A DNA stretch of 64,000 nucleotides. It comes from Aminobacterium sp. MB27-C1. GTDB lineage: Bacteria > Synergistota > Synergistia > Synergistales > Aminobacteriaceae. The stretch is from assembly GCF_030908405.1 (NCBI RefSeq), contig NZ_CP133089.1:434001-498000 (forward strand), given 5' to 3'. The stretch's first letter is position 1; each line of letters starts with the position of its first letter. The notes beneath the pieces are model-generated. The model had not been told where the DNA came from, made no database searches, and saw only the letters and a program-made list of their open reading frames with translations. Shown in pieces: positions 35,245 through 51,436 of the stretch. The translations under genes were made by a program, and so were the position numbers.

Positions 35245-36351
35245 GTGGAAGCATTGGATAAGACGGGAGAAATAATGGAAGTGGATGAATCAAGAAAAAT
35301 GGAAGAAACAAACGAATTGGAGAAAACAGGAGAAATTGGAATAGACGAGCCTAAACTTCCCCTTGAAATAGAAGAAGAGCTATGTTCTCTCTTTCATTGC
35401 ACTTCTAAATCTTTGTCTGCTATTATGTCTACAGTTAATGAAAATCCTAAAGAGCTTTTAACCCTTCTTAAATCGCTTTCCCCTAAGTTTCTTGCTGTGA
35501 AAGTTCGTTTTGATTCTCGCAAAAGGGGAGATGTTGGCGGTGCTTTTTGCCTCTTATGTGAAGGAACATCTGGTGATATCTTTGATGAAAGTTATTGGGT
35601 TTCCAGTAAAGGATTTCCAGAAAGGTTTAGTGTAAATGCCAGTTGGGAATCTGTACGGAAAGCGTTAATAGACTTAAGAGGTCCCGATCTGCGTGCCCAC
35701 TTTGAAAAAGTTCTTTGGAACAAGCTTCGCAGTATAGTACGCGATCTCATGACACCCACACAACTGAATCTTATCTTTTCACAAGATAAAGGCGAAAAAC
35801 AGATAGAAGACGTATTGCATGAACAGCTCAAAGAAGCTTTCAGAACAGAAATTGAAATGCAAATATCGGTAGAGCGGTTCAATAAAGCTCGCTTGGAATT
35901 GTCCGGTTTGGGCCAAGAAGAAAAGAAAGAAGAAAAAGAAGAAAAAACAACTACGAATGTTATCGGTGAAGGTGGAATCCAGATTTCTTGTAATCCTTTT
36001 GTTGATCCAGTTCGGGGGAAAGCTGCTTCAGAACTTGTGGAGAATGATTGTATTTGGGTTTCTTTCGAAGATACCGGCCTTTCTGGATTTATCAAAAGAA
36101 CCTTAGAGCAAACAAGCGAGAAGCCTGTTTTTCCCGTTCGGTCAGTAGAAAAACTTCCCACAGGCCTTGTTTTGGCAAAAATTGCAATTTCTGAAGGAGT
36201 ACAAGGACTTGTACGTGTGTCTGGAGATATAAAAGTACGAGTAGAATCTGAACATTCGATGGAAAAGATTTCACCTTTCCCGTTAAGGCTTTTAGTTTGG
36301 ATAGGTGGCTCTCTTTTATTGTTATGGCTTGTCTATATTTTCTTGCGATGA
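35245..36351 (+). CDS. Unknown C-terminally membrane-anchored protein between cheD and sigma28
   Basis: I do not recognise this 368-residue protein. It has a very acidic, repeat-like N-terminus with two KTGEI copies (about 1-45), a middle region with a charged helix (about 170-225), a beta-rich part (about 240-335) and one hydrophobic helix at the extreme C-terminus (about 345-366, LRLLVWIGGSLLLLWLVYIF). This suggests a tail-anchored inner-membrane protein facing the cytoplasm. The GTG start at 35245 follows GGGGGGAG by 4 bases. Its place between cheD and the sigma28 gene, where Bacillus has nothing, points to a motility-related role that cannot be named. Confidence 0.8.
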   Translation: MEALDKTGEIMEVDESRKMEETNELEKTGEIGIDEPKLPLEIEEELCSLFHCTSKSLSAIMSTVNENPKELLTLLKSLSPKFLAVKVRFDSRKRGDVGGAFCLLCEGTSGDIFDESYWVSSKGFPERFSVNASWESVRKALIDLRGPDLRAHFEKVLWNKLRSIVRDLMTPTQLNLIFSQDKGEKQIEDVLHEQLKEAFRTEIEMQISVERFNKARLELSGLGQEEKKEEKEEKTTTNVIGEGGIQISCNPFVDPVRGKAASELVENDCIWVSFEDTGLSGFIKRTLEQTSEKPVFPVRSVEKLPTGLVLAKIAISEGVQGLVRVSGDIKVRVESEHSMEKISPFPLRLLVWIGGSLLLLWLVYIFLR

Positions 36352-42849: not shown

Positions 42850-42925
42850 GAGCCGTTAGCTCAGTTGGTAGAGCACCGGACTTTTAATCCGGGCGTCGTG
42901 GGTTCGACTCCCACACGGCTCACCA
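42850..42925 (+). tRNA. tRNA-Lys (anticodon UUU)
   Basis: A 76-base cloverleaf. The acceptor arms GAGCCGT and ACGGCTC pair over 7 bp, the D arm contains AGCTCAGTTGGTAGAGC, the anticodon loop CTTTTAA gives UUU at 42883-42885, and the T arm contains GTTCGACTC. The 3' CCA is encoded. Confidence 0.97.
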
Positions 42926-42929
42926 TCGC

Positions 42930-43005
42930 GGTCCCATCGTCCAGAGGTCTAGGACACAGCCCTTTCAAGGCTGCGACACGGGTTCAAATCCCGTTGGGAC
43001 CGCCA
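42930..43005 (+). tRNA. tRNA-Glu (anticodon UUC)
   Basis: A 76-base cloverleaf. Acceptor arms GGTCCCA and TGGGACC pair, the anticodon loop CTTTCAA gives UUC at 42964-42966, and the T arm carries GGTTCAAATCC. The discriminator is G and the CCA is encoded. It lies 4 bases after tRNA-Lys. Confidence 0.97.
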
Positions 43006-43019
43006 TTTTAGTTTACTCT

Positions 43020-43095
43020 GCCGGTGTAGCTCAGTTGGTAGAGCAGCGCACTCGTAATGCGCAGGTCGGCGGTTCGAGTCCGCCCGCCGGCTCCA
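43020..43095 (+). tRNA. tRNA-Thr (anticodon CGU)
   Basis: A 76-base cloverleaf. Acceptor arms GCCGGTG and CGCCGGC pair with one G-T wobble, the anticodon loop CTCGTAA gives CGU at 43053-43055, and the T arm contains GGTTCGAGTCC. The 3' CCA is encoded. It ends the three-tRNA transcript. Confidence 0.97.
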
Positions 43096-43251: not shown

Positions 43252-43905
43252 ATGGTTTTGAAACAGATATTATTTATTCGCCACGGACAAACTGATTGGA
43301 ATAATGAAATGCGGTATCAAGGGCAAAGTGATGTTCCTCTTAACGCAGAAGGATTGGAACAAGCCGATCGTCTCTCTCTTCGTTTATGCTCGTGTTTTCA
43401 AGCTGACCTTATAGTAACAAGCCCTCTGTGTCGTGCTCATAGAACAGCGGAAATTATTGCGATGCGGCAGAAAAAAGACCAAATTCTTGTACGTGAGGAT
43501 TTAAAGGAAATTGGTTTTGGGAAATGGGAAGGTCTTACTGTCTCCGAGGTAAAAAAACGTTTTCCCGATGAACATGATCAATGGAGAAAAGATCCTTCTA
43601 CAGTGATTCCTGGGGATGGTGAATCTTTTGAGGCCGTTCGTTTAAGGGTAGCGAGTGTCCTTGAAGAAATCTTACAAAGAGATGAAGAACAAATAATGGT
43701 TGTTGCCCATGGGGGAGCAATTCGCACGGCTCTTGTTGATTTGTTAAAAGTGAATTCCTCATTAGTATGGCACATGCGCCTTGATAATTGTTCGATCTCT
43801 TCGGTGCATGTTTTTCAAAGTACGATAATGCTGGCATTTTTAAATGATGCGACTCATCTTTACGTACCTAAAGAATTTATTCGTTATATACCTCTTTCTT
43901 CTTAG
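43252..43905 (+). CDS. Histidine phosphatase (phosphoglycerate mutase-like) family protein
   Basis: A 217-residue phosphatase of the RHG superfamily. The phospho-His motif FIRHGQTDWN is near residue 8, the substrate-arginine region TSPLCRAHRTAEI follows, and the second catalytic His is in VAHGGAIRTAL. Many relatives dephosphorylate alpha-ribazole phosphate or phosphosugars; the substrate cannot be told here because no cobalamin genes are adjacent. AAAGGAG lies upstream of the ATG. Confidence 0.88.
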   Translation: MVLKQILFIRHGQTDWNNEMRYQGQSDVPLNAEGLEQADRLSLRLCSCFQADLIVTSPLCRAHRTAEIIAMRQKKDQILVREDLKEIGFGKWEGLTVSEVKKRFPDEHDQWRKDPSTVIPGDGESFEAVRLRVASVLEEILQRDEEQIMVVAHGGAIRTALVDLLKVNSSLVWHMRLDNCSISSVHVFQSTIMLAFLNDATHLYVPKEFIRYIPLSS

Positions 43906-43968
43906 ACAATCGTAAGCCAAACTGATAGAATTTTCATAGTTTTGTTTGCGCTATAAGGGGGGATAGGG

Positions 43969-44559
43969 TTGAGTGTAGATTATGAAAAGAAGCAGGACGA
44001 AGTACGACTTTCTCCAGAAAGGGAAAAAGAACTCTGGGCTTCCTGCCGCACAGACGATTGTGCCCGTGAAGAATTGATAGTATCTTATAGACCCCTCGTT
44101 TTTTGGCTTGCTCAAAAATTTCATGTTTCTCCGTCTATCTATCCAGATTTAGTCCAGGAGGGTATGGTTGCCCTTATTAAGGCAGTTGATAAATTCGAAC
44201 CTGAGCGTCAACTTAAATTTACGACATATGCTTTTTACCGTATTAAGGGGCAAATGGTTAATTATTTACAACGTAGCGAGGCTAAGGCTCCCCTTCCTGT
44301 CGACGATGAGGAAATGTGTATATCAGACGATTTCTCTTGTGATTCATACGATTTATTTCTTACGTTGTCTCAAGAAATAGAAAAGCTTCCTAATCGGGAA
44401 GCAGAAGTGGTTTCGGAGATGTTTTTCAAGGGGCATGAGGCAAAAGAAGTAGCAAAAGATCAAGGGATTGATGTAAGTCATGTATATAGGCTTAAACGCA
44501 GCGCTATAGCTCGTCTTAAGAGTTGGATTTTTCCTGATCATACCACTAAAAAAGCGTAA
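43969..44559 (+). CDS. Sigma-70-family RNA polymerase sigma factor (second, alternative)
   Basis: A 196-residue sigma factor with region 2 (YPDLVQEGMVALIKAVDKFE, then KFTTYAFYRIKGQMVNYL) and region 4 (LPNREAEVVSEMFF, and DVSHVYRLKRSAIARL). Region 3 is replaced by a short acidic linker (about 108-125), so it resembles a compact alternative or ECF-like factor. It is clearly different from the sigma28 at 36371. The TTG start at 43969 follows AAGGGGGG by about 8 bases. The next genes are a membrane protein and bamA in line, suggesting a role in envelope gene control; the regulon is unknown. Confidence 0.85.
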   Translation: MSVDYEKKQDEVRLSPEREKELWASCRTDDCAREELIVSYRPLVFWLAQKFHVSPSIYPDLVQEGMVALIKAVDKFEPERQLKFTTYAFYRIKGQMVNYLQRSEAKAPLPVDDEEMCISDDFSCDSYDLFLTLSQEIEKLPNREAEVVSEMFFKGHEAKEVAKDQGIDVSHVYRLKRSAIARLKSWIFPDHTTKKA

Positions 44560-44622
44560 TAGGTGATAACTATTAGAGAAGGTATGTAGAAAGAAAAGGT
44601 ACCCTTCCAGGAGTGATCTGTT

Positions 44623-45258
44623 GTGGAAAAGCGTATTAGCCGAGTTATGCGATGGCTTGAGAGATGTATGTATGCCACAAAAAGCAAATCGTGGCATAAT
44701 GCCTTGACGGAAATGGAATGCGCCAGAGCTGAGTTGGAAGAAGCTAGGAAAGAGCTTTGGCAACTAGCTGAAACACAAGGTCAAGAGCAAAAGAACAAGG
44801 GGATAGTGGTGTTAAGTCGTGTTGCCACTCTTACTGTTCTTTTCCTCTGTGTTTTGTCTGTTCCTTTGTCTGTTTCTCAAAGTAATGATTCCCAAAAGTA
44901 TGTAGCAAAAAAAGAGTTTTCCTTAGAATGGGTTACTTCAGATGAACGGGCGGTATTAGCTGGTTTACGTAAAAGCCTGAGCGAAAGTAATATTGAAGCG
45001 TTACGTAACAGAGAGGAAGGATATAAAAATGAACGAGATTCTCTACCTATATCTTCAGTTGCGATGACGACAGACGTAAAACAAGCTAAGGAAATGCCAA
45101 TAGAAAAAAAAGAACTCCAGAACAAAAAGAGTGTGGCAAAAGAAGATCAACAAGTTGGTAATGCAAACGAAACTCTAGAACGACTTTTAACGTTGCTCCA
45201 AATAGGGCAAAGTGCATTACGTGAACAAGGACCTGCTATAATTATAAATCGGCAGTAA
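44623..45258 (+). CDS. Unknown single-pass membrane protein, possible sigma regulator
   Basis: A 211-residue protein with a charged, helical N-terminal part of about 60 residues, one transmembrane helix (about 61-85, LSRVATLTVLFLCVLSVPLS) and a hydrophilic C-terminal part of about 125 residues. The charge pattern puts the N-terminus in the cytoplasm. I recognise no domain. The layout and the position after a sigma factor gene resemble an anti-sigma factor, which is inference only. The GTG start at 44623 follows CAGGAG. bamA starts 33 bp downstream. Confidence 0.75.
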   Translation: MEKRISRVMRWLERCMYATKSKSWHNALTEMECARAELEEARKELWQLAETQGQEQKNKGIVVLSRVATLTVLFLCVLSVPLSVSQSNDSQKYVAKKEFSLEWVTSDERAVLAGLRKSLSESNIEALRNREEGYKNERDSLPISSVAMTTDVKQAKEMPIEKKELQNKKSVAKEDQQVGNANETLERLLTLLQIGQSALREQGPAIIINRQ

Positions 45259-45291
45259 AAAACTTCACCTTCCTGGAAGGAGAGATTACGT

Positions 45292-47028
45292 GTGAAACGG
45301 CCAGTACTTATTTCAATAATATGTTTCCTTTTTATGTTTTTTATGATTCAGGGAGGTTGGGCACAAGATCTCCAGGTAGTTTCTAGAAATGTTAAAGGAA
45401 ATGAACATGTAGTATCAGAACATATTCTTTCGACCGTAGGAACCAAGATTGGAGAGACTTTGAATCGAGAGCAACTTCAAAAAGATGTGGAAGCCATTTA
45501 TGAATTAGGATTCTTTTCTTTTGTGGATGTTGAACTTACACCTGAAGCAGGTGGTGTTGCTGTTACATATGTAGTGAAAGAAAATCCAGTTATAGAAAAG
45601 ATTGAGATTTCTGGAAATACCATCTATAGCGATGAAGATTTGATGAAACTGGTTTTTACGACCCCGGGAACTGTCTTCAATCGTGTCTTTTTTAGGCATG
45701 ATCTAGAAAGAATTCAGGAAAAGTATCAAAAAGATGGCTACGTAATGATGAGAGTTGCTGATGTCCAGGTAGAAAATGGTATTATAAACGTTCAGATTAT
45801 GGAACCTATCGTTGGGGATATTATTATTCAGGGAAATACGAAGACGAAACGTTATGTAATTGAACGCCAAATAAAGGTTAAAAAGGGAGATCTTTTTAAC
45901 GCTACAGTACTTCGCCATTCAATTAATAAGTTACAGCAACTTGGATATTTTGAAGATGTAAATGTCGGATTTGAACCGGGAGACACACCTCTCGCTACTA
46001 ATATAGTTGTGACGGTTGAAGAAAAAAAGACGGCTTCAGTAGGGCTTTCCATTAGTCATGGTACAGAAAGTGGATGGTCCGGGGGACTCTCTTACGGAGA
46101 TATAAACTGGAAGGGTAGAGGGCATAAGGCCGAGATTGGTTTTGAAACTGGTGACAACGAACAGTATTGGTTGACATACATAGAGCCGTATATGGATGAA
46201 ACGCACTATTCGTGGAAAGTTGGCGCTTATAAGCGAGTTTGGGAAGAGCGCGGTTACTATCGCAGTGGAGATAAACGTCTTGAATACGATGAGGAGCGAG
46301 TGGGATTTTATTTCGGTGCCGGTAAAAAATTTACCCACGATCCTCGTTTGAGTTGGTTCCTAACTCTTGATTGGCATGATGTAGATGTTTATAACATTAA
46401 AAAAACTTCTTTAGGTACACAGGAAGATATTGATGATTTGACAAAGGGTACAACCTTTGCCGCTATTGGAACATTGACAAGAAGCACCCTTGATGAATAC
46501 TTGAGCTATCCCAAAGGTGATGTTATAGACTTAAACGTTGAACACGCCTTGGATTTCTTGGGAGCTGACTGGACCTATACTAAATACTGGTTGCAAGGAC
46601 GATATTATGTTCCTCTTTTAGGACTTAACGATTTCTTGGATATGAATTTGGGGAAAGAAGATAATCCTCCAATTTTGGCAGCTCGTATAAAAGCTGGTTT
46701 TTCCTCTGGAACCCTCCCATCTGCTGAACGTTTCTCCATTGGAGGATCTAACTCTTTGCGTGGATATGATGGTGGAGAGTTTGAAGGAGACGAAATGTTT
46801 TTAGCAAATGTGGAGGCACGACTTCCCATAGAAAATGCTTTTGGCTTTGTCCTCTTTTACGATGCAGGAAACGCTTGGAGAGATGATAAAAACTTCAGTC
46901 TTTCTGATCTTCACGATTCCTGGGGGGTCGGTGTAAGAGTAAAAACCCCTATAGGTAATCTGCGACTTGATTATGCTAAGGGAGACGAGGAAAATAAGAC
47001 TCACTTTGGGTTCGGTGAACTTTTCTAA
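45292..47028 (+). CDS. bamA: Outer-membrane protein assembly factor BamA (Omp85 family)
   Basis: Inserts beta-barrel proteins into the outer membrane. The 578 residues start with a signal peptide (about 1-24, ending GGWA), then about three POTRA domains (about 28-245) and a C-terminal barrel ending in Phe. The loop-6 motif appears as LRGYDGGEFEGDE, and the last residues are FGFGELF. Enteric BamA has five POTRA domains and about 800 residues; this one is short. The GTG start at 45292 follows AAGGAGAG. This gene is direct evidence for a diderm cell. Confidence 0.93.
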   Translation: MKRPVLISIICFLFMFFMIQGGWAQDLQVVSRNVKGNEHVVSEHILSTVGTKIGETLNREQLQKDVEAIYELGFFSFVDVELTPEAGGVAVTYVVKENPVIEKIEISGNTIYSDEDLMKLVFTTPGTVFNRVFFRHDLERIQEKYQKDGYVMMRVADVQVENGIINVQIMEPIVGDIIIQGNTKTKRYVIERQIKVKKGDLFNATVLRHSINKLQQLGYFEDVNVGFEPGDTPLATNIVVTVEEKKTASVGLSISHGTESGWSGGLSYGDINWKGRGHKAEIGFETGDNEQYWLTYIEPYMDETHYSWKVGAYKRVWEERGYYRSGDKRLEYDEERVGFYFGAGKKFTHDPRLSWFLTLDWHDVDVYNIKKTSLGTQEDIDDLTKGTTFAAIGTLTRSTLDEYLSYPKGDVIDLNVEHALDFLGADWTYTKYWLQGRYYVPLLGLNDFLDMNLGKEDNPPILAARIKAGFSSGTLPSAERFSIGGSNSLRGYDGGEFEGDEMFLANVEARLPIENAFGFVLFYDAGNAWRDDKNFSLSDLHDSWGVGVRVKTPIGNLRLDYAKGDEENKTHFGFGELF

Positions 47029-48265
47029 AGAAAAAAGGGTTGTAGCCGCTCTCTTTTTGGCTGCAACCCTGCTTTTTATTTCTTTCCCCTTGTACGGGGC
47101 TGTTCGTATTGAGGGAATGCCGAAATGGATGGCTGAAAGTGCTGAAAAAAGCCTCAATGCGGTTTGGAATGAAATGGATAGAACCATACCGCTTGCTGAG
47201 CGTTTTTCTATGTTGGTTCTTGTTGGGAATAGGTTGCTTTCAGGATATACTATTGAAACGCCTCACTATTCTGATGGTGATGTAATTGTTAGGGCTCTGG
47301 CGGAGGATTTTCCCCAGTGGCGTATCGAATTGAACAATCCCTCTCTTCCTTTTCCAGCCAATACGTGGTTTAAAGATGATACGAGACAGTTCCCTGATCT
47401 TGTTCATATATGTTTGGAGAATGTACCTGTTAGTGCATTAGCGTGGGCAGATATGGCTTTGAGGCGGGAAATAGAGGCGATAACGAAAGAACATGTTCCT
47501 GGCTGGGATATTTCAATTCTTGTCGAATTGGCAGAAGGTGCGAACTCTCCAGTTTTAAGAATTTCCTTTGTTCCTGAACAACCTTTAGTTCTGGCCGTTA
47601 CTCCTTCAGTTCAGTCAGGGTCGTTGCCTGTTGCTTTTCAAACAGATTTGAAAGATAATTTGCAGTCGGGACTTTTTCCTGTTATTGGATTACCTGTAAA
47701 TTGGGTTGATTACCACAAGAGAGATATTGAGATATTGGCAGAGCAATCTCTTGCTGATAGAAATATCATCGAAAATTCTAAAGCAAAAGTGGACGTTTCG
47801 TTTCGACCGTCTCAAATTTCTCGTGCTGATGCGCGAGTAGAAAGCTCTCGATATACGATTCAGGCATGGGCTGCTGCTTACGGAGGAACGGACGATAGGT
47901 ATCCGGAATTGGGGCTTCATGTCGGACGTAAAGCTTTACCTATGAGCGGATGGAATGTGGAACTTTACGGTGAATGGATACTTTCAACTAACGATTTTGA
48001 TCTTGAAAGTCGTTGGGGAGCCCGATGGAAGATTCATTCCCGCATATTGCTAGGAGCCGAAATTGCTTATCCAGGAGAAGAACTATGGTGGCGATTTTGG
48101 TTTACTGGTCACGTTAAACAGCCCTATGTATGGTGGCGATATAGTGAAAATAGTAAAAGCAACATGGGTATAGGCTATCGTATAAATGAGTTCTTATCCA
48201 TTGAATTGCATTATGATGAGCGCGATGATGATCAATGGAGTATCCGCGCGGTCGGAAATTTGTAG
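47015..48265 (+). CDS. Unknown exported protein between bamA and lpxD
   Basis: A 416-residue protein I do not recognise. It has a clear signal peptide (about 1-29: KEKRVVAALFLAATLLFISF then PLYGA) and a beta-rich mature part, especially the last 120 residues, where aromatic alternating strands (GWNVELYGEWIL, WWRFWFTGHVKQPYVWW) suggest an outer-membrane barrel or barrel-associated domain. The GTG start at 47015 overlaps bamA by 14 bp. In many diderms the chaperone gene skp lies here, but this protein is larger and not Skp-like. An in-frame ATG at 46967 would remove the signal peptide layout. Confidence 0.75.
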   Translation: MNFSKEKRVVAALFLAATLLFISFPLYGAVRIEGMPKWMAESAEKSLNAVWNEMDRTIPLAERFSMLVLVGNRLLSGYTIETPHYSDGDVIVRALAEDFPQWRIELNNPSLPFPANTWFKDDTRQFPDLVHICLENVPVSALAWADMALRREIEAITKEHVPGWDISILVELAEGANSPVLRISFVPEQPLVLAVTPSVQSGSLPVAFQTDLKDNLQSGLFPVIGLPVNWVDYHKRDIEILAEQSLADRNIIENSKAKVDVSFRPSQISRADARVESSRYTIQAWAAAYGGTDDRYPELGLHVGRKALPMSGWNVELYGEWILSTNDFDLESRWGARWKIHSRILLGAEIAYPGEELWWRFWFTGHVKQPYVWWRYSENSKSNMGIGYRINEFLSIELHYDERDDDQWSIRAVGNL

Positions 48266-48278
48266 GGGGGCAGTTGAT

Positions 48279-49325
48279 ATGAAAAATAAATCTGACGTAA
48301 ATATGACCTTAGGTCAGATTGCCAAATATATAGGAGGGAAGATCGTAGGGGACAAAGAAATGGTTGTACATAAACTTGTCTCTCCAGAAAAGAGTGAAAA
48401 GGGTACTCTCTCAGTAATCTGGGATGAAAAAGAACTGGAGTTACTTTCTTCTGATGCTTTGCTTGTTGCAGCGCAATCTTTTTTTAACGAATCTCGCCAA
48501 GGTATTATTGTTGAAAAACCGAGAGAAGCCTTTGCTAATCTTTTACATTTATTTGATAAAAAAACCAGTTTCTCATACGGTATTCATCCTACAGCTGTTG
48601 TATCTGAAACGGCATGTATCTCTGCCGCTGCGTATGTCGGTCCTCTTTGTGTTATAGGTGATGATGTTGTAATAGGAGAAAATGTTATTCTTGAAGGGCA
48701 GATTTTTATAGGAGAGCGCAGCGTTGTAGAAGCAGGAACACATATTGAACCCCAGGTAGTTTTGTATTCAGATGTGAAGGTGGGGAAAAATGTATTGATT
48801 CATAGCGGAGCTGTAATTGGTTGCGATGGTTTTGGTATTATCCCATCATTTCATCCGGAAGCGCGTCCTCAGAAAATACCACAGATTGGTGGCGTTTCCA
48901 TTAAAGATGATGTCGAAATTGGAGCCTGCACCACTATAGATCGAGGGACTCTCAACGATACCGTTATTGGATCGGGCACAAAGATAGATGATCATGTTCA
49001 TATAGCTCACAATGCTCAGATAGGAGAAAATTGTATTATAGTCGCCATGTCTGGTATTGCAGGAAGTGCAGAAATAGGGGAAGGCGTTATAATGGCTGCC
49101 CGAAGTGGAGTGAAGGATCACGTAAAAGTTGGCTCAAGAGCACAAATAGCGGCTTTTGGCGGGGCAATAAAAGACGTTCCGTCAGGAATAATAGTCTCAG
49201 GTTTTCCTGCGCGGGATCACAAAGAGCATTTTAGAGCACAAGCTCTCTACCTTCGTTTACCAGAGCTCTTTGCGCGCCTTAAGGCTCTGGAGAAAAAATT
49301 GTCAGGTAGCGGGGAAGAGAAATGA
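48279..49325 (+). CDS. lpxD: UDP-3-O-(3-hydroxyacyl)glucosamine N-acyltransferase LpxD
   Basis: Third step of lipid A synthesis: N-acylation of UDP-3-O-acyl-glucosamine. The 348 residues have an N-terminal uridine-binding domain and left-handed beta-helix hexapeptide repeats (about 100-310). The catalytic His region is VHIAHNAQIGENC. The ATG at 48279 follows GGGGGG; a longer in-frame start at 48186 lies inside the previous gene. lpxC overlaps by 4 bp. Confidence 0.95.
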   Translation: MKNKSDVNMTLGQIAKYIGGKIVGDKEMVVHKLVSPEKSEKGTLSVIWDEKELELLSSDALLVAAQSFFNESRQGIIVEKPREAFANLLHLFDKKTSFSYGIHPTAVVSETACISAAAYVGPLCVIGDDVVIGENVILEGQIFIGERSVVEAGTHIEPQVVLYSDVKVGKNVLIHSGAVIGCDGFGIIPSFHPEARPQKIPQIGGVSIKDDVEIGACTTIDRGTLNDTVIGSGTKIDDHVHIAHNAQIGENCIIVAMSGIAGSAEIGEGVIMAARSGVKDHVKVGSRAQIAAFGGAIKDVPSGIIVSGFPARDHKEHFRAQALYLRLPELFARLKALEKKLSGSGEEK

Positions 49326-50161
49326 GTTTTTTATGTACGGTAAAAAATCCTGTACGTTTTGAAGGTGTTGGTCTCCATTCAGGGAAGCCATGTAGTGTTG
49401 AAATCAACCCCTTATATGTGTCGAGAGGTATTGTTTTTGAAATAGAAAATCGTTCTTATAGTCTTGACGAAGCGGAGCTTCGAGGTAGCGGGCGCGGCAC
49501 GGAGCTTGTTTTTTCAGATGGAGCCATAGTAAGAACAGTTGAACATCTTATGGCTGCTCTTTATACTCGCAACATAGGGCAAGCAGTAATAAGAATCAGC
49601 GGTCCTGAAATGCCAGTTTTAGATGGTAGTTCTCTTGCTTTTTCTAAGAAATTGAAAGAAGTAGGAGTTGTAGAGACAGATTGCGAAACAGTGCCCTTTT
49701 GTCCTTGGGTACCTATAGTTGAGACAGACAATAGCAAGAAAAAAATTCTTTGCGCTTTTCCAAGTGACTCACTTTCTATAACGTATGCCATTGAGTATGA
49801 AAATCCCGTTATAGGAACAGAAATCTATGACTTTAGAGTCACTTCTGAAGGCTTTTTGGAAGAGATTGCTCCTTGTAGAACCTTTGCCTTGGAAGAAGAA
49901 ATGGATGCCCTGCGTGAAAGAGGGCTTGCCAGGGGCGGAAATCTTGAAAACGCTATTTTAGTAACACCTCATGAAGCTTTAAATCAAAAGGGATTATATT
50001 TTTCAAATGAATTTGTTCGACATAAAATATTGGATATTATCGGAGATTTGGCCTTGTTAGGTCGACCTCTCCATGCCCATATAGTAGCCATCCGTACTGG
50101 TCATGACATGCACCTTCGTCTTGTACGGCGGTTAAAAAGAATGTTAAACCGGAATGAATGA
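49322..50161 (+). CDS. lpxC: UDP-3-O-acyl-N-acetylglucosamine deacetylase LpxC
   Basis: Zinc deacetylase, the committed step of lipid A synthesis. The 279 residues show the metal and catalytic motifs: TVEHLMAAL (zinc His), RHKILDIIGDLALLG (zinc His and Asp) and GRPLHAHIVAIRTGHDMH. It is a separate protein, not fused to FabZ as in some diderms. It overlaps lpxD (ATGA) and is followed by fabZ 13 bp downstream. Confidence 0.96.
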   Translation: MSFLCTVKNPVRFEGVGLHSGKPCSVEINPLYVSRGIVFEIENRSYSLDEAELRGSGRGTELVFSDGAIVRTVEHLMAALYTRNIGQAVIRISGPEMPVLDGSSLAFSKKLKEVGVVETDCETVPFCPWVPIVETDNSKKKILCAFPSDSLSITYAIEYENPVIGTEIYDFRVTSEGFLEEIAPCRTFALEEEMDALRERGLARGGNLENAILVTPHEALNQKGLYFSNEFVRHKILDIIGDLALLGRPLHAHIVAIRTGHDMHLRLVRRLKRMLNRNE

Positions 50162-50174
50162 AGGAGGATATATA

Positions 50175-50630
50175 ATGATTGACATTGATAGAATAATGAA
50201 GGCTCTTCCTCACCGTTATCCCTTTCTATTGGTTGATCGCATCGTATCTGTAGAAGAAAATCGAGTTGTTGGTTTGAAAAATGTTACAATCAACGAACCT
50301 TTTTTTCAGGGACATTTCCCAGGAGAACCAGTTATGCCTGGAGTGCTGATTCTGGAAGCCATGGGACAAGTAGCAGCAATGATGATTGTTTGTCGTCCCA
50401 ATATGGAAAATAAGATTACATATTTGACAGGAGTTGACAAGGCCCGCTTCCGTCGCCCCGTTCGACCGGGAGATCAGTTGATTACTACAGCTGAGATAAC
50501 GAAAATACGAGGCCATGTAGGCAAAGTAAAAGCTAAGAGCGAAGTTGATGGAGAAATTGCTGCGGAAGCCGAGTACAGTTTCATTTTGGCAGAACAACTC
50601 CCAAAAGAAAAGACGGAGGTAAACGACTAA
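50175..50630 (+). CDS. fabZ: 3-hydroxyacyl-ACP dehydratase FabZ
   Basis: Dehydrates 3-hydroxyacyl-ACP, which also balances the acyl supply for lipid A. The 151 residues contain the hot-dog fold signature LPHRYPFLLVDR with the catalytic His and FPGEPVMPGVLILEAMGQ with the catalytic Glu. The ATG at 50175 follows AAGGAGG; an upstream in-frame ATG at 50154 lies within lpxC. Confidence 0.95.
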   Translation: MIDIDRIMKALPHRYPFLLVDRIVSVEENRVVGLKNVTINEPFFQGHFPGEPVMPGVLILEAMGQVAAMMIVCRPNMENKITYLTGVDKARFRRPVRPGDQLITTAEITKIRGHVGKVKAKSEVDGEIAAEAEYSFILAEQLPKEKTEVND

Positions 50631-50632
50631 TC

Positions 50633-51436
50633 ATGGGCGCGACCATTCACCCTACCGCAATAGTATCACCGAAAGCCGAAATTGAAGATAATGTTGTCAT
50701 AGGTCCCTACTGTATTGTGGAAGACAAAGTCCATATCGGTGAGGGAACTGTGTTGGAAGCGTTTATTCATCTTCTTGATTTTACAGAACTCGGCAGCACA
50801 TGTCATATCTATGAAAATACAGTTCTTGGCAGAGAACCTCAAGACAGAGATTTTGGTGGTGAAGAGAGCTGGGTTCGCATTGGCAATAATGTTGTTATTA
50901 GAGAGAACGTAACTATTCATCGCTCAAGTGGTGAAGGAACGACAACAGAAGTAGGAAATGATTGCTTCATCATGGAAGGAGTCCATCTTGGGCACAACGT
51001 GCATATTGGCAACCGAGTAACAATAGCTAATAAAGCAGGTTTTGCCGGATATGTTACGGTGGGTGATGGTACTGTTGTCGGCGGTCTCGCAGGTTTCCAT
51101 CAATTTGTTCGTATTGGACGTTTCTGTATGATTGGTGGTTTATCAAAGATAGTTAAAGATGTTCCTCCTTTCTTGCTTGTAGATGGTCATCCAGCGCGTG
51201 TGCATGGTATAAATCGAGTCGGATTAAAACGGGCAGGCTTTTCTTCTGGAGAGAGACAGGAAATAAAGGAGCTCTATCGACATCTTTACCATGCTGGACT
51301 CCCTTTCAGAACGGCAGCTCAAAGTATGCCTGTAGAAGGAAGCCTCGCCGCTGCAGAAATTTCTGCTTTTGTGGCTCAGTCCAAGCGAGGAGTAACGCCA
51401 TGGCCGCATGTAATTAAGGGAGATGCAGATGATTAA
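50633..51436 (+). CDS. lpxA: UDP-N-acetylglucosamine O-acyltransferase LpxA
   Basis: First step of lipid A synthesis. The 267 residues form a hexapeptide-repeat beta helix (about 1-190) with the catalytic His region VHLGHNVHIGN and the family stretch GGLAGFHQFVRIGRFC, followed by a C-terminal helical domain. It starts 2 bp after fabZ. GGAGG upstream is a little far from the ATG (12 bases). kdsC overlaps its end by 8 bp. Confidence 0.95.
   Translation: MGATIHPTAIVSPKAEIEDNVVIGPYCIVEDKVHIGEGTVLEAFIHLLDFTELGSTCHIYENTVLGREPQDRDFGGEESWVRIGNNVVIRENVTIHRSSGEGTTTEVGNDCFIMEGVHLGHNVHIGNRVTIANKAGFAGYVTVGDGTVVGGLAGFHQFVRIGRFCMIGGLSKIVKDVPPFLLVDGHPARVHGINRVGLKRAGFSSGERQEIKELYRHLYHAGLPFRTAAQSMPVEGSLAAAEISAFVAQSKRGVTPWPHVIKGDADD

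Follow-up and report, generated by a model that had tools for sequence, protein, structure and literature searches.

The DNA examined here is a 64,000-nt window within the complete 2.43-Mb genome of a Synergistota species. On its forward strand, the gene for a compact sigma-70-family factor of 196 aa (43969–44559) is followed, after 63 bp, by that for a single-pass membrane protein of 211 aa (44623–45258, hereafter TMP), which we propose below to be an anti-sigma factor, and, after a further 33 bp, by bamA (45292–47028). As placed by the gene order in relatives, bamA is the third gene of the operon, and its product carries three POTRA matches and the Omp85 barrel (Pfam, NCBIfam). A preliminary description of this DNA had drawn these three in one row, and all three open reading frames proved to be real, where it had put them and on one strand. 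It missed a further gene between bamA and lpxD on the same strand, h469 (47018–48265), whose secreted product combines POTRA-like domains with what is predicted to be an outer-membrane barrel of 10 strands; the h469 frame opens at 46967 and its true start is uncertain, the profile match beginning at about 47018. The genes lpxD, lpxC, fabZ and lpxA follow downstream in a row, again on the forward strand (48186–51436). A conserved promoter heads the operon (43903–43931, forward strand), consisting of TAGACA, a 17-bp spacer and the extended −10 TGATAGAAT.

Upstream of the sigma gene lies a His-phosphatase gene (43252–43905), matched by the alpha-ribazole phosphatase model above its cut-off. Almost all genomes have it in front of sigma, even though a separate promoter serves sigma. 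Between argH and the phosphatase gene, the window carries three tRNA genes at 42850–43095 (Lys-TTT, Glu-TTC and Thr-CGT).

Profile searches of 188 Synergistota genomes detected sigma in 157, TMP in 160 and h469 in 157. For the 116 genomes with completeness of 90% or more and contamination of 5% or less, the counts were 105, 106 and 103, respectively. In 61 close relatives, one clear sigma orthologue per genome was found, with few exceptions. Neighbourhoods were read in about 80 genomes and, loss cases aside, the order wherever the contig continues is His-phosphatase, sigma, TMP, bamA, h469, lpxD, lpxC, fabZ, lpxA. On unbroken contigs, adjacency of sigma, TMP, bamA and h469 spans 10 families plus the two deepest, f11 and f12. 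In these two, the TMP-like proteins are barely recognisable in sequence and retain a helical N-terminus, one membrane helix and an end resembling L-x-x-L-x-x-x-G. Since the row is present in 157–160 of the 188 genomes with one conserved order, its conservation is far above chance. The preliminary description had named the place of the pair beside bamA in relatives as a test of its own reading, and the linkage turned out to be strict across the phylum.

The sigma gene product belongs to the sigma-70 family, with Pfam matches above the curated cut-offs to Sigma70_r2 (60.2 bits, 1.7e-16; 44074–44277) and Sigma70_r4 (27.6 bits, 2e-06; 44377–44520). The two regions lie 33 residues apart and no region 3 was found by Pfam. 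This two-domain layout is ECF-like, but the Sigma70_ECF model stayed below its cut-off and the protein does not classify as ECF (group 4). The best specific NCBIfam models were WhiG, SigB/F/G and FliA; nevertheless, with 65–80 bits against cut-offs of 190–460 and no region 3, it does not classify as a FliA/WhiG (group 3) member either. Its best solved relatives are of the WhiG and FliA types, with WhiG first (6pfj, E 2.8e-25). As judged from these matches, the factor is nearest to WhiG/SigB/FliA-type sigmas and not to ECF, and is related to the FliA/WhiG group without being a member of it. The genome encodes four proteins with a sigma region 2: RpoD, FliA (window position 36305), the bamA-row sigma and a 166-aa factor located elsewhere. 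The latter (L176:2322-2822, equivalent to G000:C1:135321-135821) lies directly after a VanY/M15-like peptidase frame and is possibly a phage-type regulator.

TMP is composed of a cytoplasmic helical hairpin (residues 1–58), one transmembrane helix (about residues 61–83), a periplasmic linker of about 100 residues and a conserved C-terminal motif, LxLxQxGxxALR (about residues 189–201). W11, R14, P81, L191 and G195 are invariant in the orthologue alignment. The single hydrophobic segment of the window TMP (near residue 62) was found, with no second one, in 47 of 47 aligned orthologues, where it begins at residue 58–73; in these, the median charge is +3 before the segment, on the cytoplasmic side, and 0 after it, and the median linker is 93 residues. 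The topology is therefore that of RseA: cytoplasmic N-terminus, one transmembrane helix and periplasmic C-terminus. No Pfam or NCBIfam family was assigned to the window TMP and, in the window protein and the families listed for 47 members, there was no match to known anti-sigma families, including the RseA N-terminal domain in Pfam.

AlphaFold2 modelled the TMP N-terminus as a helical hairpin with pLDDT of about 90. An in silico fusion of sigma to TMP residues 1–67 (the genes share a frame, and stops were treated as residues) gave no confident interface, with a pTM of 0.31 from an alignment of only 18 rows. Rate covariation, computed by partial Mantel, was 0.09 between sigma and the TMP N-terminus after correction for bamA and lpxA, and the phosphatase control was no lower. 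The highest value, 0.38, was obtained for the TMP N-terminus with h469, but h469 with the phosphatase also reached 0.29.

The small cytoplasmic domain, the lack of a match to known anti-sigma families and the lack of a predicted interface would suit a different role for TMP, as an assembly or scaffolding factor in the envelope that serves BamA, with sigma merely co-inherited through operon linkage. Genomes that have lost the genes speak against this. Sigma, TMP and h469 were jointly absent genome-wide, as judged by profile searches, from G036, G115 and G107 (one genus), G038, G039 and G144. These six genomes are 97–100% complete and in them lpxD and lpxC come straight after bamA, the lipid A genes being retained where the module is lost. 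In G038 and G039 the phosphatase gene stands directly before bamA, and the sigma-TMP pair is therefore cleanly missing. In the bamA tree, module-keeping relatives separate G107 from G036 and G115, and G144 from G039, on well-supported branches, while G038 falls in another family, its own branch being long. Because the tree separates the loss genomes in this way, it indicates that sigma, TMP and h469 were lost together four or five times independently. RpoD is kept in the loss genomes, and FliA also in the three of genus g16; the loss is therefore not simply tied to motility.

Among genomes with a continuous contig, we found neither sigma without TMP nor TMP without sigma, and h469 is absent wherever both are truly absent. 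A scaffold for BamA would not be expected to show this pattern, in which bamA repeatedly survives without TMP and TMP never cleanly without sigma, and we regard that role as very improbable. Instead, sigma and TMP very probably form a functional unit, and TMP is likely to be the anti-sigma factor of the sigma encoded beside it. The earlier proposal that the two genes resemble a pair of the RpoE-RseA type, without relation in sequence, thus gains support from their co-loss in several lineages.

Several further genomes were rejected as loss cases. In G007 the stretch is N-masked around bamA (L143), with only the last TMP residues readable before it as a remnant match to the TMP C-terminus, and the genome cannot be scored. 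In G178, G145, G171, G074 and G183, the contig ends or no bamA was found; for G171 (96% complete) and G145 (93%), where no bamA was found, this may reflect an assembly gap or a changed envelope. Two other features were observed in genomes devoid of the sigma: in f4 genomes BamA is extended at its N-terminus by about 100 residues (L146:9194-11287, L152:1156-3228), and in G107 a Skp/OmpH-like chaperone gene (L150:3440-3946) precedes bamA, replacing the sigma-TMP pair.

The preliminary description further proposed that the sigma directly transcribes bamA and the lpx genes, in an RpoE-like envelope-stress loop. Its position as first gene of the bamA-lpx row in relatives would fit such a circuit. 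However, the only conserved promoter heads the row and is of the housekeeping type. In the window, TAGACA (43903–43908) overlaps the stop codon of the upstream gene and the extended −10 TGATAGAAT occupies 43923–43931, a layout with the same 17-bp spacing also present in two sister species. In a survey of 50 genomes, 28 had TGNTANAAT in the 120 nt preceding sigma (0.42 expected), although in one genus group some of these sites are produced by a Trp codon and stop codon closing the gene before it and are perhaps not promoters. In the same survey it occurred before TMP in two genomes, before bamA in two and before h469 or any lpx gene in none. A non-T third base of the −10 (TANAAT) was considered as the mark of a sigma-specific promoter and rejected, since promoter-like sites in these loci that have a good −35 box carry the same variants; the housekeeping promoter upstream of the tRNA operon at 42850 (TTGACT-16-TAGAAT) likewise has the −10 TAGAAT.

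In addition, similar elements persist in genomes devoid of the sigma: CTGTTACAAT lies at the former place of sigma, 35 nt before bamA, in L145, and extended −10 elements precede bamA in L144, L149 and L152 as well. Since the promoter variants match housekeeping sites and the elements persist without the sigma, the row is most likely read by the housekeeping sigma, as far as sequence can tell. The short intergenic gaps inside the row also count against the proposed circuit. Direct control of bamA and lpx transcription by the sigma of the row thus finds no sequence support and appears distinctly improbable to us. Of the earlier reading, the sigma/anti-sigma-like pair linked to bamA stands, whereas the proposed transcriptional control of bamA and the lipid A genes does not.

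The model of h469 (pLDDT 75) shows alpha/beta domains of POTRA-like type and a barrel of 10 strands; a signal peptide is also predicted. Top Foldseek matches were BamA, TamA and FhaC, with E down to 1.6e-06 and low TM-scores; this list tests chiefly the barrel, and folds missing from it for the N-terminal part carry no meaning. The barrel part was superimposed on two 10-strand proteins, OpcA (Z 13.3, 3.1 Å over 136 residues) and TMB10 (Z 12.8, 3.2 Å over 131 residues). Pfam POTRA and Omp85 models did not match h469. Neither TMP nor h469 matched a FecR or TonB-receptor family, which sets the module apart from FecR-type cell-surface signalling.

In G081, sigma and TMP are present while bamA is directly followed by lpxD and h469 is gone. 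Since it was lost there without sigma and TMP, h469 is not strictly required. Its sister G088, in which the contig ends within bamA, is also without h469. The C-terminal motif scores of the TMPs from G081 and G088 are the lowest and third-lowest of 67, and their N-terminal domains score at the median. The core LxxxGxx[ASV][LM] is absent from only three TMPs, those of G081, G088 and L172, the last being a mild variant (QTGARELR). Degradation of the motif in just the two h469-less genomes points to a role of the periplasmic end of TMP in serving h469, on the basis of one evolutionary event.

These observations bear on whether h469 acts as a sensor. It could instead act downstream as an effector or be an accessory protein of the outer membrane, such as a partner of BamA or a target of the sigma, with TMP as a membrane anti-sigma in a switch of two parts. 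The loss of h469 alone in G081 agrees with this, as does the position of its gene after bamA together with the frequent disappearance of regulon genes along with their regulator. On the other hand, a pure effector would not lead one to expect that the two genomes lacking h469 are just the ones with a degraded TMP C-terminus, and we consider this alternative unlikely. More plausibly, h469 is part of the same switch as sigma and TMP.

We therefore favour, with some reserve, a trans-envelope switch of three parts: the sigma, TMP as inner-membrane anti-sigma and h469 as outer-membrane partner. The compact sigma would be held in the cytoplasm, at the inner membrane, by the helical-hairpin N-terminus of TMP. 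TMP would cross the periplasm through its linker, and its short conserved C-terminal motif would dock on h469, at the POTRA-like part that faces the periplasm; h469 itself is a predicted outer-membrane barrel, presumably encoded on one transcript with BamA. Should h469 be absent, unfolded or bound to a ligand, TMP would change state and let go of the sigma, perhaps by proteolysis through the M50 protease encoded in the genome. Cleavage of TMP is inferred from the presence of this protease and from precedents for cleavage of membrane anti-sigmas, RseA and FoxR/FecR (PMC3306311, PMC8144685, PMC11637429). Such a switch would report outer-membrane assembly or surface state.

Three known systems can be compared with this module. 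As in RpoE-RseA of Proteobacteria, a sigma gene is followed by that of a single-pass protein with cytoplasmic N-terminus and periplasmic C-terminus, and a link to outer-membrane assembly is plausible. In contrast to that system, the Synergistota sigma falls outside the ECF group, TMP lacks an RseA domain and its periplasmic design is a long linker ending in a short motif; the module also includes an outer-membrane-type protein and shows no sign of sigma-driven bamA transcription. With FecI-FecR-FecA and FoxI-FoxR-FoxA it shares the grouping of sigma, inner-membrane regulator and outer-membrane barrel in one gene set, and in the Fox system the C-terminal end of the anti-sigma is in contact with the barrel protein's periplasmic signalling domain (PMC11637429). 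Unlike the TonB-dependent receptors of these systems, h469 has POTRA-like domains and a barrel predicted at 10 strands; moreover, TMP lacks a FecR domain, the sigma is again not ECF, and the module is inherited phylum-wide at one locus with no sign of an iron link. As for WhiG-RsiG of Actinobacteria, the sigmas are of the same broad group, and the antiparallel helix pair used by RsiG (PMC8325347) resembles the TMP hairpin. However, WhiG has a region 3 that the Synergistota sigma lacks, and RsiG binds c-di-GMP and is not described as membrane-bound. Kinship of TMP with RsiG was rejected, the c-di-GMP motif E(X)3S(X)2R(X)3Q(X)3D being found in 0 of 47 TMPs.

Envelope-stress signalling is known mainly from Proteobacteria. 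The kind of system, a sigma with a membrane regulator and an outer-membrane partner, is already known. What is new, as far as our searches reach, are its parts, their fixation around bamA throughout the phylum and the use of a non-ECF sigma; in the open-access literature, no paper on the sigma-TMP-h469 module was found. TMP and h469 represent two new protein families with a concrete, testable job, and the natural loss series, with four or five lineages without the module and one without h469 only, offers ready comparisons. We put forward, tentatively and as somewhat less than an even bet, that the module is an ancestral, phylum-wide outer-membrane surveillance system, in which a barrel made and monitored together with BamA would signal through a periplasm-spanning tether to a non-ECF sigma, and which would have arisen independently of RpoE-RseA and FecI-FecR-FecA. 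Taken together, the position of sigma, TMP and h469 around bamA and their joint disappearance suggest that, across almost the whole phylum, a hitherto undescribed route carries signals from the outer membrane to the transcription machinery. If true, outer-membrane assembly would have been coupled to transcription more than once, with unrelated parts, here in a deep-branching diderm phylum.
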